NCBI GenBank assembly: GCA_025057055.1 | Contig: JANWYF010000089.1 | Span: 1 to 35,426 of the forward strand | Source: Rhodovarius sp. | Lineage (GTDB): Bacteria > Pseudomonadota > Alphaproteobacteria > Acetobacterales > Acetobacteraceae | DNA length: 35,426 bases | Direction of reading: 5' to 3' | Part shown: piece by piece, positions 9,108 through 12,655 of the stretch | How positions within the stretch are numbered: position 1 is the first letter of the stretch | Layout of the letters: each line of letters begins with the position of its first letter | Position numbers and translations under genes: made by a program | Notes under the pieces: generated by a model | Seen by the model: the letters and a program-made list of their open reading frames with translations, nothing else | Database searches by the model: none | Told to the model about the DNA's origin: nothing

Positions 9108-10445
9108 TCAGGCCGGCAGGTTGCTGCCGAAGAGGGTGCGGTGCATCAGGCGATAGACATCCACATTGTCCATGGTGCCCGCCTGGCTGATCAGCTCGGC
9201 GTTCAGGCCGACGCCGCGCACCAGGATCCCGCCCGAGACATCGGTCAGGGTCGACCAGGCGATGGCGAAGGGATGCCGCCGCCCGGCCTTGTCGGGGGCC
9301 GAAAGCCAAGCGGTCGTGCCGGTGCCGCGCTGGCCGTCGAGCGGGGCACCGTTGCGGTCGCGCTCGGGCAGGTTCTGGCCCTCGCGGATCACCTGCTGCC
9401 CGGCGCCGGGGCCGATCACCTGCATCCCGCCCGCATCGGAATCGGCGCAGGTCAGCATCAGCGTATTGGGGTTGGCTGCGACATAGCGGCGGAAGAGCCC
9501 GATCGCCGCATCGGCGCGCGCGCCGGCCTCGAGGCTGCCCGCCGCGTTGTTGACATTGCCGAAATTGTCGCAGCCTTCTTCCTCGGCCACCAGGAGGAAG
9601 CCCTGCGGCGCGCGGGAGAGGATGCGCAGCGCCACTTCGCTCATCTCGGCGATGCTGGGCGCGGTCGGGACGTAGTGCGGCAGGCCCTCGCGGGCCAGGG
9701 CCTCCTCGCTGCGGTCATGGAAAGTGTGGTCGTGGGCGAAGATGCCCCACACCCGCGTCGCATCGGGCGGCAGGGCGGCCAGCTCCTCGCGCGTGTAGAC
9801 GATGTGATAGCCCCGCCCGCGCAGCATCTCGATCAGGTTGAGGCCGTCTTCGCGCGCGCCCTCCCCGTGGCGGCCCTGCACGCCGCGCGGCAGATACCAG
9901 CGCTCGCCGCCGGCCATGTGGACCTGCACCCCGGACTCAGCGACCAGCCGGGTGATCTCGGCCAGGTTGGCGCGCCGTTCAGTGCTGGCGACGAAGGCCG
10001 CCGTGCCCGGCTCATAGGCCGCGCCGGAATTGACGAGGCCCACCCATTTGCCGCGCGCCATCGCCTCCCGCGCGATGGAACCGTCGAAGCCGGAGAGGCT
10101 GCGGATCGGGGTGCTGCCGTCCATGCCGAAGCTGTCGGCCTGCACGCGGATGCCGAAGGCATGGGTGGTGGCCCCGCCATGCGAGGTGCCGGTCAGCCCA
10201 TCCTTCATGTGGCCAAGATAGACCGCCATATGCGGCAGCCGGTCCCATTCCAGCCGGCCGTCGGGCCCCTTCTCGACGAAGCGCAGCGCGCCCCAGTGGT
10301 TCACCCCAAAACCGTCGGGATGGAAGAAAATGACATTGCCGGTGGCGGGCGCGGCGGGCTGCGGCGCTGCGGGCTGCGCCCCGGCAGGCAGGCTGGCGGC
10401 CAGCACGGCCCCGGCGGCGCCGGTGAAGAGCGAACGTCGATCCAT
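9108..10445 (-). CDS. Alkaline phosphatase superfamily protein, Tat-exported, atypical metal site
   Basis: This 445-residue protein starts with a twin-arginine signal (DRRSLFTGAAGAVLAASLPAGAQ), so it is probably a folded periplasmic enzyme. It aligns with PhoA: NVIFFHPDGFG gives Asp44 (PhoA Asp51), TSHGGATTHAFG gives Ser88 (nucleophile Ser102), EEEGCD gives Glu288 and Asp293 (Glu322, Asp327), and CADSD gives Asp335 (Asp369). The three zinc histidines are not where expected: His331 aligns with Asn297, His370 with Ser336, and the His412 region reads GTGTTAW (374-380). It may be a divergent phosphatase or phosphodiesterase with other ligands, or an inactive binder. A perfect AGGAGG lies ten bases before the ATG. 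The small-RNA candidate is just upstream on the same strand. Confidence 0.82.
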   Translation of the reverse strand: MDRRSLFTGAAGAVLAASLPAGAQPAAPQPAAPATGNVIFFHPDGFGVNHWGALRFVEKGPDGRLEWDRLPHMAVYLGHMKDGLTGTSHGGATTHAFGIRVQADSFGMDGSTPIRSLSGFDGSIAREAMARGKWVGLVNSGAAYEPGTAAFVASTERRANLAEITRLVAESGVQVHMAGGERWYLPRGVQGRHGEGAREDGLNLIEMLRGRGYHIVYTREELAALPPDATRVWGIFAHDHTFHDRSEEALAREGLPHYVPTAPSIAEMSEVALRILSRAPQGFLLVAEEEGCDNFGNVNNAAGSLEAGARADAAIGLFRRYVAANPNTLMLTCADSDAGGMQVIGPGAGQQVIREGQNLPERDRNGAPLDGQRGTGTTAWLSAPDKAGRRHPFAIAWSTLTDVSGGILVRGVGLNAELISQAGTMDNVDVYRLMHRTLFGSNLPA

Positions 10446-10527: not shown

Positions 10528-10557
10528 AAAAAAAATGGCGGGGCCAGGGGCCCCGCC
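10528..10557 (-). terminator. Strong intrinsic terminator of the small-RNA candidate
   Basis: On the minus strand GGCGGGGCC (10557-10549) pairs perfectly with GGCCCCGCC (10545-10537) around a three-base loop. An A and then eight T follow (10535-10528). Its position 83 bases before the phosphatase start codon means it ends a separate short transcript, or attenuates read-through into the phosphatase. Confidence 0.8.
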
Positions 10558-10615
10558 GAGTTGTAGGGAGGAAACGTCCAAGAAAGGCAGGCGAGAGAGG
10601 CATTCCCTCGCTGCG
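10528..10615 (-). ncRNA. Candidate trans-acting small RNA resembling alphaproteobacterial mmgR/suhB (alpha-r8) type
   Basis: About 88 nucleotides with three parts. A 5' hairpin pairs GCGAGGG (10611-10605) with CTCTCGC (10597-10591), including one G-U pair. A mostly unpaired middle contains UUUCCUCCCU (complement of 10565-10574). The 3' end is a nine-base-pair GC terminator with eight U. A good sigma-70-like promoter precedes it. From memory, an unpaired UUUCCUCCCU followed directly by the terminator is the hallmark of the mmgR/suhB family, which acts with Hfq and affects polyhydroxybutyrate storage in Sinorhizobium. The CU-rich core is complementary to ribosome binding sites. The exact 5' end (10614-10617) is estimated from the -10 element. 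Alternatively this is the phosphatase leader with an attenuator. Confidence 0.62.
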
Positions 10616-10621
10616 GCCTTC

Positions 10622-10650
10622 TCTATAGCGCCGGGATCGTTCGCATGCAA
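10622..10650 (-). promoter_or_regulatory. Sigma-70-type promoter for the small-RNA candidate
   Basis: Minus-strand TTGCAT (10650-10645) is separated by exactly 17 bases from TATAGA (10627-10622). Both hexamers are close to consensus, which is rare in this GC-rich window. The predicted start is at about 10615. Confidence 0.6.
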
Positions 10651-10727
10651 GCGACTTTTCGCGGCGCAACATAACCGAACCTCTTAGCTATCGGCAGGGC
10701 TGGCATGCCGCTTGCGCGGGACTCGGC

Positions 10728-11615
10728 ATGCGCACCTGTCCCTTCACCGCGGCTCTGGCCTCTTGGCTCCGCCACCGCCGGCCAGGCCGGCGCGGATGCG
10801 CCCTGCTGCTGGCCGCCGCGACCGTGACCGCCCTAGCCCAGCCGCCGCGCGCCCTGGCCGCCCCGGGCCTCTGCCGCGCCGCGATCGCCCTGGCCGAACG
10901 CGAGGCCAACATCCCCCCCGGCCTGCTGCAGGCGATCGGGCAGGTGGAATCCGGCCGCCGTGACCCTGCGACCGGCGAGCGGGAGCCCTGGCCCTGGACC
11001 GTCCACGCCGAGGGACAGGGCAGATTCTTCCCCGACCGGGCGGCAGCCGTTGCCGCGGTGCGCGAGCTGCAGGGCCGGGGGGTCCGGCTGATCGATGTCG
11101 GCTGCCTGCAGGTCAACCTCCATCACCACCCCCAGGCCTTCGCCAGCCTCGAGGAGGCCTTCGACCCCCTCGCCAATGCCCGCTATGCCGCGCGCTACCT
11201 GCGCCAGCTGCAGGAGGGCCGGGGCGATTGGCTGCTCGCCGCCGGGCATTACCATTCGCACACCCCGCATCTGGCCGAGGCCTATCGGGCCCGGGTCGCC
11301 GCTGCCTGGCCGGCCGAACAGGCCAGGTTGGCCGCGGCCCGGCTGAGCTTGGCCGCCCTGCGGCCCGCCTCGGCCACGCCTGGGGGCTCGGGGGCGGCGG
11401 GGCTGTCCAACCGGGCCGAAGCCGCGCGGCTGCTGCCGTCGGCCGCCGGGGCCGGGCGCGGGCTCGATGCCTATCGCGCCGCGCCGGTGCCGATTGCGGG
11501 CCGCAGCCCGGCCGCCGCGGCCCCGCCGAGCCCGGCCGCCGGCCCGCCGCGCGGTATGTGGCTGGCCGCGGGGCCGGGGCGCCCGCTCTGGCCTGTTCCC
11601 GCAGCCCGCCCCTAG
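10728..11615 (+). CDS. Exported lytic transglycosylase (SLT domain) with alanine/proline-rich tail
   Basis: This 295-residue protein has a basic N-terminus and a hydrophobic stretch (CALLLAAATVTALA, about 24-37), with a likely signal-peptidase site near ALA|AP at 44. The SLT fold covers about 47-190. The catalytic glutamate is Glu74 in AIGQVESGR, followed by a DVGCLQVNLHHH segment that corresponds to the GLMQI motif of other lytic transglycosylases, and LAAGHYHSHTPH. It would cleave peptidoglycan glycan strands to 1,6-anhydro ends in the periplasm. Residues 200-295 are low-complexity Ala/Pro/Gly/Arg and probably disordered. No strong ribosome binding site precedes the ATG at 10728, but no other start keeps the signal peptide. 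This variant resembles single-domain transglycosylases associated with secretion or flagella, but no such genes are nearby. Confidence 0.83.
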   Translation: MRTCPFTAALASWLRHRRPGRRGCALLLAAATVTALAQPPRALAAPGLCRAAIALAEREANIPPGLLQAIGQVESGRRDPATGEREPWPWTVHAEGQGRFFPDRAAAVAAVRELQGRGVRLIDVGCLQVNLHHHPQAFASLEEAFDPLANARYAARYLRQLQEGRGDWLLAAGHYHSHTPHLAEAYRARVAAAWPAEQARLAAARLSLAALRPASATPGGSGAAGLSNRAEAARLLPSAAGAGRGLDAYRAAPVPIAGRSPAAAAPPSPAAGPPRGMWLAAGPGRPLWPVPAARP

Positions 11616-11659: not shown

Positions 11660-12655
11660 ATGACTACACTGCGCCGCCGCGCCCTGCTGGGCGCCGCCCT
11701 GATGGGCCCCTGCCTTGCCACCCCCCTCCGCGCCCAGGGCTTCCCGACGCGCCCGGTGCGCATCATCGCCCCCTTTCCGCCCGGCGGGGCGGTGGACATC
11801 ACCGCCCGGCTGCTCGCGGAACGCCTGCAGCCCATCCTGGGCCAGCCCGTCCTGGTCGAGAACCGCGGCGGCGCCGGCGGCAATCTGGGCGCCGAGGCGG
11901 TGGCCCGGGCCGAGCCCGACGGGCATACCATCCTGCTCGGCACCGCCACCATCCTGGCCGCGAACAAGTTCCTCTATCGCCGCTCGATGACCTTCGACCC
12001 GCTGCGGGATTTCGCGCCGGTGACGCGGGTCTCGACCGGCACGGTGCTGCTCGTCGTCAACGCCGACCGGCCCTGGCGCAGTTTCCAGGAGCTGGTGGCG
12101 GCGGCACGCGCCCAACCGGGGCGGATCACCATGGGCTCCTCCGGCACCGGGACGGTAAGCCATTTCACCCTCGCCTCGCTCAACCGGGCCGCCGGCATCG
12201 AGATCACCCATGTCCCCTACCGCGGTGGCGGCCCCGCCATCACCGATCTGCTCGCCGGATCGATCGACATGATGTTCGATGTCATCCCGGCGCTGATGCC
12301 CCATGTGCGCTCCGGTCGCTTCCGCCCCCTCGCGGTGGGCAGCGCCGAGCGCATCACCTTCGTGCCCGAACTCCGGGATGTGCCCGGGATGCGCGAGCTG
12401 CTGCCCGGTTCGGGCATCGACATGCAGTCCTGGTACGCGGTGGTGGCGCCGGCGCGCACCCCGCCTGCGGCCATCACCCGGCTGCATCAGGCCCTGCTGC
12501 AGGTGGTGCAGAGCGAGGACTATCGCTCCCGTCTCGAGCCCCTGGGCTTCGAGCCGGTCTTCGACCCCTCGCCCGAGGCTTTCGGGGCTTATTGGCGCGA
12601 ACAGGAGCGGGTCTGGCAGGGCCTGGTCGAGGCCTCGGGCGCCACACTCGATTGA
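11660..12655 (+). CDS. Tripartite tricarboxylate transporter substrate-binding protein (Bug family)
   Basis: This 331-residue periplasmic solute-binding protein is of the Bug/TctC type. The signal peptide MTTLRRRALLGAALMGPC... ends near LRAQ|GFP, and its RRR could permit Tat export. Family marks are FPTRPVRIIAPFPPGGAVDITAR (about 28-50), PVLVENRGGAGGNLGAEAVARA, a THVPYRGGGPAITDLLAGSIDMM segment that binds carboxylate ligands, and a SWYAVVAPARTP stretch. No TctA or TctB membrane subunit is nearby, which is common because Bug genes are often orphaned and expanded in Acetobacteraceae and Burkholderiales. The ligand cannot be deduced. TATCTT at 11648-11653 ends seven bases before the ATG and no ribosome binding site is seen, so the message may be leaderless. 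Confidence 0.92.
   Translation: MTTLRRRALLGAALMGPCLATPLRAQGFPTRPVRIIAPFPPGGAVDITARLLAERLQPILGQPVLVENRGGAGGNLGAEAVARAEPDGHTILLGTATILAANKFLYRRSMTFDPLRDFAPVTRVSTGTVLLVVNADRPWRSFQELVAAARAQPGRITMGSSGTGTVSHFTLASLNRAAGIEITHVPYRGGGPAITDLLAGSIDMMFDVIPALMPHVRSGRFRPLAVGSAERITFVPELRDVPGMRELLPGSGIDMQSWYAVVAPARTPPAAITRLHQALLQVVQSEDYRSRLEPLGFEPVFDPSPEAFGAYWREQERVWQGLVEASGATLD

Follow-up and report, generated by a model that had tools for sequence, protein, structure and literature searches.

The window, a 35,426-nt stretch of Rhodovarius sp. DNA (contig JANWYF010000089.1), carries a predicted small RNA (sRNA) gene on its minus strand, between genes for an alkaline phosphatase and an SLT-domain transglycosylase. 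The features of the locus are listed below.

9108-10445, minus strand: alkaline phosphatase gene (Pfam PF00245), downstream of the sRNA; not a conserved neighbour.
10528-10615, minus strand: predicted sRNA transcript of about 88 nt (RF00519 match, fold z −4.6); 5′ end placed from the −10 box, both ends predicted.
10528-10557, minus strand: intrinsic terminator of 9 G-C pairs and a 3-nt loop, then A and eight T (terminator scan and sequence).
10565-10574, minus strand: UUUCCUCCCU anti-Shine-Dalgarno core, reported as common to alphaR8 RNAs (excerpts of PMC12559287).
10587-10614, minus strand: strong 5′ hairpin (from the fold), mostly 5′ of the part modelled by Rfam.
10622-10627, minus strand: putative −10 box TATAGA, found by eye; absent from the output of the sigma-70 scan.
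10645-10650, minus strand: putative −35 box TTGCAT, found by eye; 77 of the 105 scored copies have a TTG likewise spaced from the upstream box.
10654-10674, minus strand: PhaR/AniA box matching the 21-nt consensus WNWDDNYGCRNYGCRNHHWNW (consensus from excerpts of PMC12542648); sole match in the window.
10668-10660, minus strand: 9-nt core of the PhaR/AniA box, ending 9 nt before the −35 box.
10728-11615, plus strand: SLT-domain transglycosylase gene (Pfam PF01464), divergent from the sRNA; the commonest neighbour found.

The 88-nt RNA folds with a predicted energy of −39.3 kcal/mol (z = −4.6), and none of 200 shuffled sequences folds as well. Its predicted fold contains the 5′ hairpin (10614-10587) and the terminator stem. 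The UUUCCUCCCU core (10574-10565) is predicted to be largely exposed: the minimum free energy (MFE) structure has 7/10 bases unpaired and 3/10 weakly paired, and the centroid 8/10 and 2/10. The terminator scan finds a single terminator (10557-10537; shuffle mean 0.3), followed by an A and eight T (10535-10528). An earlier sequence-only reading of this DNA had described a 5′ hairpin, an unpaired anti-ribosome-binding-site motif and a strong terminator with eight U, and our analysis recovers all three on the minus strand at the positions listed above. The near-consensus promoter that it also described is too strong a claim, since a sigma-70 scan reports no promoter at the sRNA and the boxes (TTGCAT, 17 nt, TATAGA; 10650-10645 and 10627-10622) are seen by eye only.

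The weak hairpin expected of alphaR8 just 5′ of the core has four pairs in the family model, including one C-A and one U-G as read here. Upstream of the core the MFE structure pairs differently from the model, and the strong hairpin stands further 5′. The sequence of this 5′ segment is poorly conserved among relatives. Counted over distinct segments, it folds more than 1 s.d. better than shuffles in 56/58 transglycosylase-linked copies, in 51/54 other copies and in 9/9 copies linked to RNase J and prolyl-tRNA synthetase genes (rnj-proS).

A covariance-model search matches RF00519 (suhB/mmgR, alphaR8) at 10595-10522 with 50.8 bits, over the gathering score of 41 (E = 9e-8, window). The match spans the whole model, and RF00519 is the sole Rfam family above cut-off in the window. 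The sequence-only reading had named the mmgR/suhB (alpha-r8) family and proposed this search; the score and the relatives described below bear out the assignment. On sequence grounds, then, the minus-strand gene is an alphaR8 sRNA, a fresh copy of a known family. A neighbouring N-formylglutamate amidohydrolase gene, which is usual for alphaR8 and not defining, is found directly beside neither the window copy nor the second copy in this genome.

The same reading had held that this gene would extend the family. That part is rejected, because alphaR8 is already reported in all Alphaproteobacteria except Rickettsiales (excerpts of PMC12559287) and is common in Acetobacteraceae, where 207 of 249 genomes have an RF00519 match and 203 have one above cut-off. 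Across genomes of the class, 107/190 match and 86 exceed the cut-off. A re-search with a laxer filter took in 41 of the 42 sRNA-negative family genomes (G246 was left out): none of 40 gave a match above cut-off (best, 27.9 bits), and G081 was RF00519-negative. Weak matches in sRNA-negative genomes score no better than those in unrelated control genomes. Two further groups of loci were seen in passing. Five genomes of the genus (loci L113, L114, L115, L116 and L117) carry matches of 32-45 bits whose core instead reads about CCUUCCUCAACCUAGACU; they form a diverged sibling group with another seed. One locus on contig 178 of the present genome (L005) and one in G225 (L119) both carry CUUCGUCUCCCAGACGUGAAGCCUCCCUG, after which come a terminator-like hairpin and a T-run; this element lies under the suhB cut-off and is possibly another sRNA family.

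For comparison of copies we used 132 Acetobacteraceae RF00519 loci, drawn from the top-scoring matches and not a random sample. Eight of these (L113-L119, L166) have no exact core plus T-run and were left out; as copies were chosen by exact core, the constancy of the core is by construction. An SLT transglycosylase gene adjoins the sRNA at 57 of the 132 loci, the window among them, and all 58 core copies at these loci are divergent from and upstream of the transglycosylase. Of the 9 genus genomes, 8 carry a copy of the window's type; in 7 it adjoins the transglycosylase. The genome itself holds a second RF00519 copy above cut-off (contig 57, locus L004, 1501-1572; 46.2 bits), which lies between RNase J and prolyl-tRNA synthetase genes (Pfam), has no PhaR box, and belongs to a type that recurs in relatives: ten core copies at the best-scoring family loci, this one included, stand beside RNase J and/or prolyl-tRNA synthetase genes. 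At four loci (L012, L193, L250, L251) two or three alphaR8 copies are clustered within a few hundred bases, and each of the 11 such copies seen has its own 9-nt PhaR-type box.

In Sinorhizobium meliloti, the PHB-binding repressor PhaR (AniA) is reported to recognise WNWDDNYGCRNYGCRNHHWNW and to shift the mmgR promoter in EMSA (excerpts of PMC12542648). This 21-mer matches once in the 35-kb window (10674-10654), just upstream of the −35 box, against 0.08 matches on average in shuffles, 8 of 100 of which have one or more. We scored a 9-nt box pattern (YGCRNYGCR) in the 130 nt upstream of each core, with random windows from the same loci as background. Among the best-scoring family loci, the 9-nt box lies upstream of 111/127 copies, compared with 792 of 4863 background windows (16%), and the full 21-mer upstream of 44/127, compared with 5/4802. 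Transglycosylase-linked copies have the 9-nt box without exception (58/58), other copies in 53/59 cases and rnj-proS copies in none (0/10). Two places are favoured, one upstream of the −35 (106/127) and one at the start site (61/127), and in 77/105 scored copies the first TTG after the upstream box comes 9 nt later. The window copy has the upstream box only; a start-site box is present in 41/58 transglycosylase-linked copies. A lone box upstream of the −35 could repress weakly or even activate.

Outside Acetobacteraceae, the 9-nt box precedes 26 of the 31 copies at the best 30 class loci (background 66/1093, 6%), and the full 21-mer 7 of 31; three of these loci gave no core copy (L247, L257, L265), and L250 and L251 gave three each. 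Boxes in 26/31 copies outside the family suggest that the link between the PhaR box and the sRNA is probably old. Against a strict rule, one copy with rnj-proS-type sequence (L282, in G039) has a 9-nt box. Titles and abstract openings among the matches listed in the open literature gave no report of a box conserved across the class or of TctC targets; the MmgR papers of 2016-2018 may already note a conserved AniA box.

The present genome has a PhaR gene (TIGR01848, E = 2e-42), and the classic PhaR targets, the phasin genes, carry the same box in this genus. We collected 17 phasin loci from 9 genomes of the genus and used 15 for spacing; L224 starts too near a contig end and L232 is a weak match. 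A 9-nt box lies within 520 nt before the phasin domain match at 15/15 of these loci, with a TTG 9 nt later in 9/15 and 8-11 nt later in 11/15. In the phasin region of the present genome, one box stands 9 nt before a TTGC and a second lies further down.

The sRNA and PhaR also tend to occur together. Among 249 family genomes, 197 have both, 10 the sRNA only, 1 PhaR only and 41 neither (11 discordant); the corresponding counts for PhaC are 181, 26, 1 and 41, and neither table is corrected for kinship or genome size. One or few losses could account for the absences within the family. In the class set of 190 genomes, likewise uncorrected for kinship and genome size, 90 have both sRNA and PhaR, 17 the sRNA only, 19 PhaR only and 64 neither (36/190 discordant). 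Seven of the 10 sRNA-only family genomes have PhaC, each with at least one boxed copy, and may miss PhaR through assembly gaps; the other three are without PhaC.

To find candidate targets we searched the genome for AGGGAGGAAA, the complement of the core, a search that the sequence-only reading had also proposed. There are six matches, two of them the sRNA genes themselves, against three for the reversed control pattern; there is thus no excess in number, and the signal lies in the positions of the matches. All four non-sRNA matches stand 4-7 nt before a start codon, and the genes concerned encode three TctC receptors and one EamA transporter. A broader target test covered 1.10 Mb of the 3.07-Mb genome (36%), with coding-like ORFs and heuristic start sites; the ORF filter passed over the third discovery gene (contig 61), which is absent from the test. 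Complements to the sRNA of at least 7 nt are found at the ribosome-binding sites of 8/16 TctC genes and 27/468 others (P = 2.8e-6), in the same genome in which three of the four exact matches had suggested TctC. With the two discovery genes removed, the comparison gives 6/14 against 27/468 at 7 nt or more (P = 1.3e-4) and 1/14 against 5/468 at 9 nt or more (P = 0.16). TctC and other genes do not differ significantly in generic Shine-Dalgarno match (P = 0.09-0.85), and the true 10-mer ranks first among 32 purine variants.

Eleven other genes have a complement of at least 8 nt. Nine of these were scanned, and three encode DctP (TRAP) receptors; the remaining six are unrelated (a TPP enzyme, glycine cleavage T, ribosomal S8, a CoA ligase type, an FAD enzyme and an HPPD type). 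The 1.10-Mb sample contains 8 DctP-like ORFs in all. Within the 1.10 Mb read, the core has its best complements at ribosome-binding sites of carboxylate receptors, TctC and DctP. TctC genes near sRNA-family matches in three relatives' loci match over 5 or 6 nt only. As to gene order, a TctC-like receptor gene ending at 12655 on the plus strand follows the transglycosylase gene in the window, and in some relatives (L102, L103, L104) TctC-like genes are found no more than 1.5 kb from the sRNA. Excerpts of PMC7143759 and PMC12559287 call the direct MmgR targets unknown, and the latter reports SisA targets in Caulobacter to be rich in membrane transporters. By analogy with SisA, the Hfq-dependent control of many mRNAs suggested by the sequence-only reading is plausible; an Hfq sequence used as query had no match in 1.10 Mb of the 3.07-Mb genome (36%).

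We propose, with a probability of roughly 0.6, that the gene is an alphaR8 sRNA of Acetobacteraceae with a PhaR (AniA)-controlled promoter, that PHB titrates PhaR, and that the sRNA lowers translation of carboxylate receptors (TctC, DctP). Its family, predicted structure, box with the conservation of that box, the phasin boxes, the co-occurrence with PhaR and the TctC complementarity are read from the DNA itself. When no PHB is stored, PhaR would occupy the box beside the −35 element and the sRNA would stay low. As PHB granules form, PhaR would be titrated and the sRNA would rise together with the phasins; for the phasins of S. meliloti such titration has been described, and MmgR likewise increases there when PhaR is lost (excerpts of PMC12542648). 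The exposed UUUCCUCCCU would then pair with ribosome-binding sites and block translation, in line with the masking by an anti-Shine-Dalgarno core proposed for SisA in Caulobacter (excerpts of PMC12559287). The most likely targets here would be the periplasmic carboxylate receptors TctC and DctP, so that uptake would fall when storage is full. For this scheme we infer expression of the RNA, binding of PhaR and the sign of its effect at the single upstream box, dependence on Hfq, and translational repression of the targets.

The strongest alternative, unlikely in our judgement yet to be taken seriously, keeps an alphaR8 sRNA under PhaR and gives it the main job proposed for MmgR in S. meliloti, namely to limit phasin synthesis and PHB instead of receptors. 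Deletion of mmgR is reported to raise PhaP1, PhaP2 and PHB in that species (excerpts of PMC9049629), and the box shared with the phasin genes of the genus, at the same spacing in 9/15, would fit such a role. The phasin mRNA does not stand out as a target, however: in this genome its start region pairs with the sRNA segment at −19.2 kcal/mol, 2 of 15 window genes do better, and the same region has no AGGGAGGAAA match.

It is less probable still that some regulator different from PhaR binds the box, or that the box is kept for another cause such as promoter architecture. PhaR binding at the window is predicted, and only the upstream box is kept there. Genomes without a PhaR or PhaC match are informative on this point, with boxed copies in G009 (0/1), G190 (0/4) and G227 (1/2); in the PhaR-negative set the core was not found at four loci (L284, L285, L286, L288). 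The boxed copy of G227 counts against a strict PhaR-box rule and favours a different regulator, whereas the 0/5 boxed copies of G009 and G190, three of the five being of the window's type, speak for PhaR. Two of the four G190 copies have rnj-proS-type sequence, a type without the box anyway. The excerpts of PMC12559287 report that the upstream regions of the four Caulobacter siblings have no motif in common, which stands against an old link between box and sRNA; this and the G190 copies weigh a little against the proposed reading. In favour of PhaR, the consensus is that published for this repressor, the mmgR promoter included (excerpts of PMC12542648), the same box stands at the phasin genes of the genus, and the rnj-proS copies lack it.

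We consider it improbable that the window gene is decayed or silent and that the rnj-proS copy on contig 57 does the work. By consensus the window copy has weak −35 and −10 boxes, and it has no start-site box; against decay, it retains an intact core, an intact terminator and a 5′ arm that folds, and a copy of its type was found in 8/9 genus genomes.

We dismiss as very unlikely that the element serves the phosphatase gene, whose start codon lies 82 nt downstream in the same orientation, as its leader or attenuator and is not a trans-acting sRNA, since the phosphatase is not a conserved neighbour: among the 132 best-scoring sRNA loci it occurs within the examined stretch at the window alone, against a transglycosylase beside 57, and of 17 phosphatase loci scanned in other records 16 have no suhB match (some span less than 1 kb of upstream DNA), the remaining one, L049, whose length suggests the same contig as L011, having sRNA and phosphatase about 1.8 kb apart. 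Most of the nearest relatives of the window phosphatase come from Roseococcus and other Acetobacteraceae records. Beyond its close relatives in Roseococcus-like records, the protein (9108-10445) is next matched, at about 50% identity, by proteins from cyanobacteria and further phyla, a hint of transfer.

We tentatively entertain, as possible and distinctly less probable than the local proposal, that PhaR control of alphaR8 is an old, class-wide circuit between storage and uptake, in which PHB titrates PhaR, sRNA and phasins go up together and translation of TctC and DctP is shut down, while the RNase J-prolyl-tRNA synthetase siblings stay largely outside PhaR control. With boxes recurring in many families, a class of siblings that lacks them and a named class of targets, it becomes possible to test which siblings respond to PHB and whether storage acts back on uptake. 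As PHB is an industrial product, a switch shared by phasins and uptake would, if true, be of practical use.

Three known systems offer a comparison. SorX (RF02784) has a similar CCUCCCU stretch followed by a terminator; the window RNA scores 20.7 bits against the SorX gathering score of 46.6 and so is not of that family, and SorY, also considered and rejected, falls far under cut-off. The gene resembles mmgR of S. meliloti in its RF00519 match, its UUUCCUCCCU core, its terminator and the PhaR/AniA box at its promoter. It differs from mmgR in having a strong hairpin 5′ of the stretch covered by the model, in the position of the box (upstream of the −35 here, ending 13 nt before the transcript in mmgR), in its transglycosylase neighbour, and in being one of two copies above cut-off, whereas S. 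meliloti has one. With SisA-D of Caulobacter crescentus it shares the same 10-nt core, the presence of several siblings per genome and targets among which nutrient receptors and transporters are prominent (excerpts of PMC12559287 for Caulobacter; predicted here). Unlike the window's type of sRNA, sisA-D are reported without a shared upstream motif in the same excerpts, and where their targets include TonB-dependent receptors, those predicted here are the periplasmic receptors TctC and DctP.
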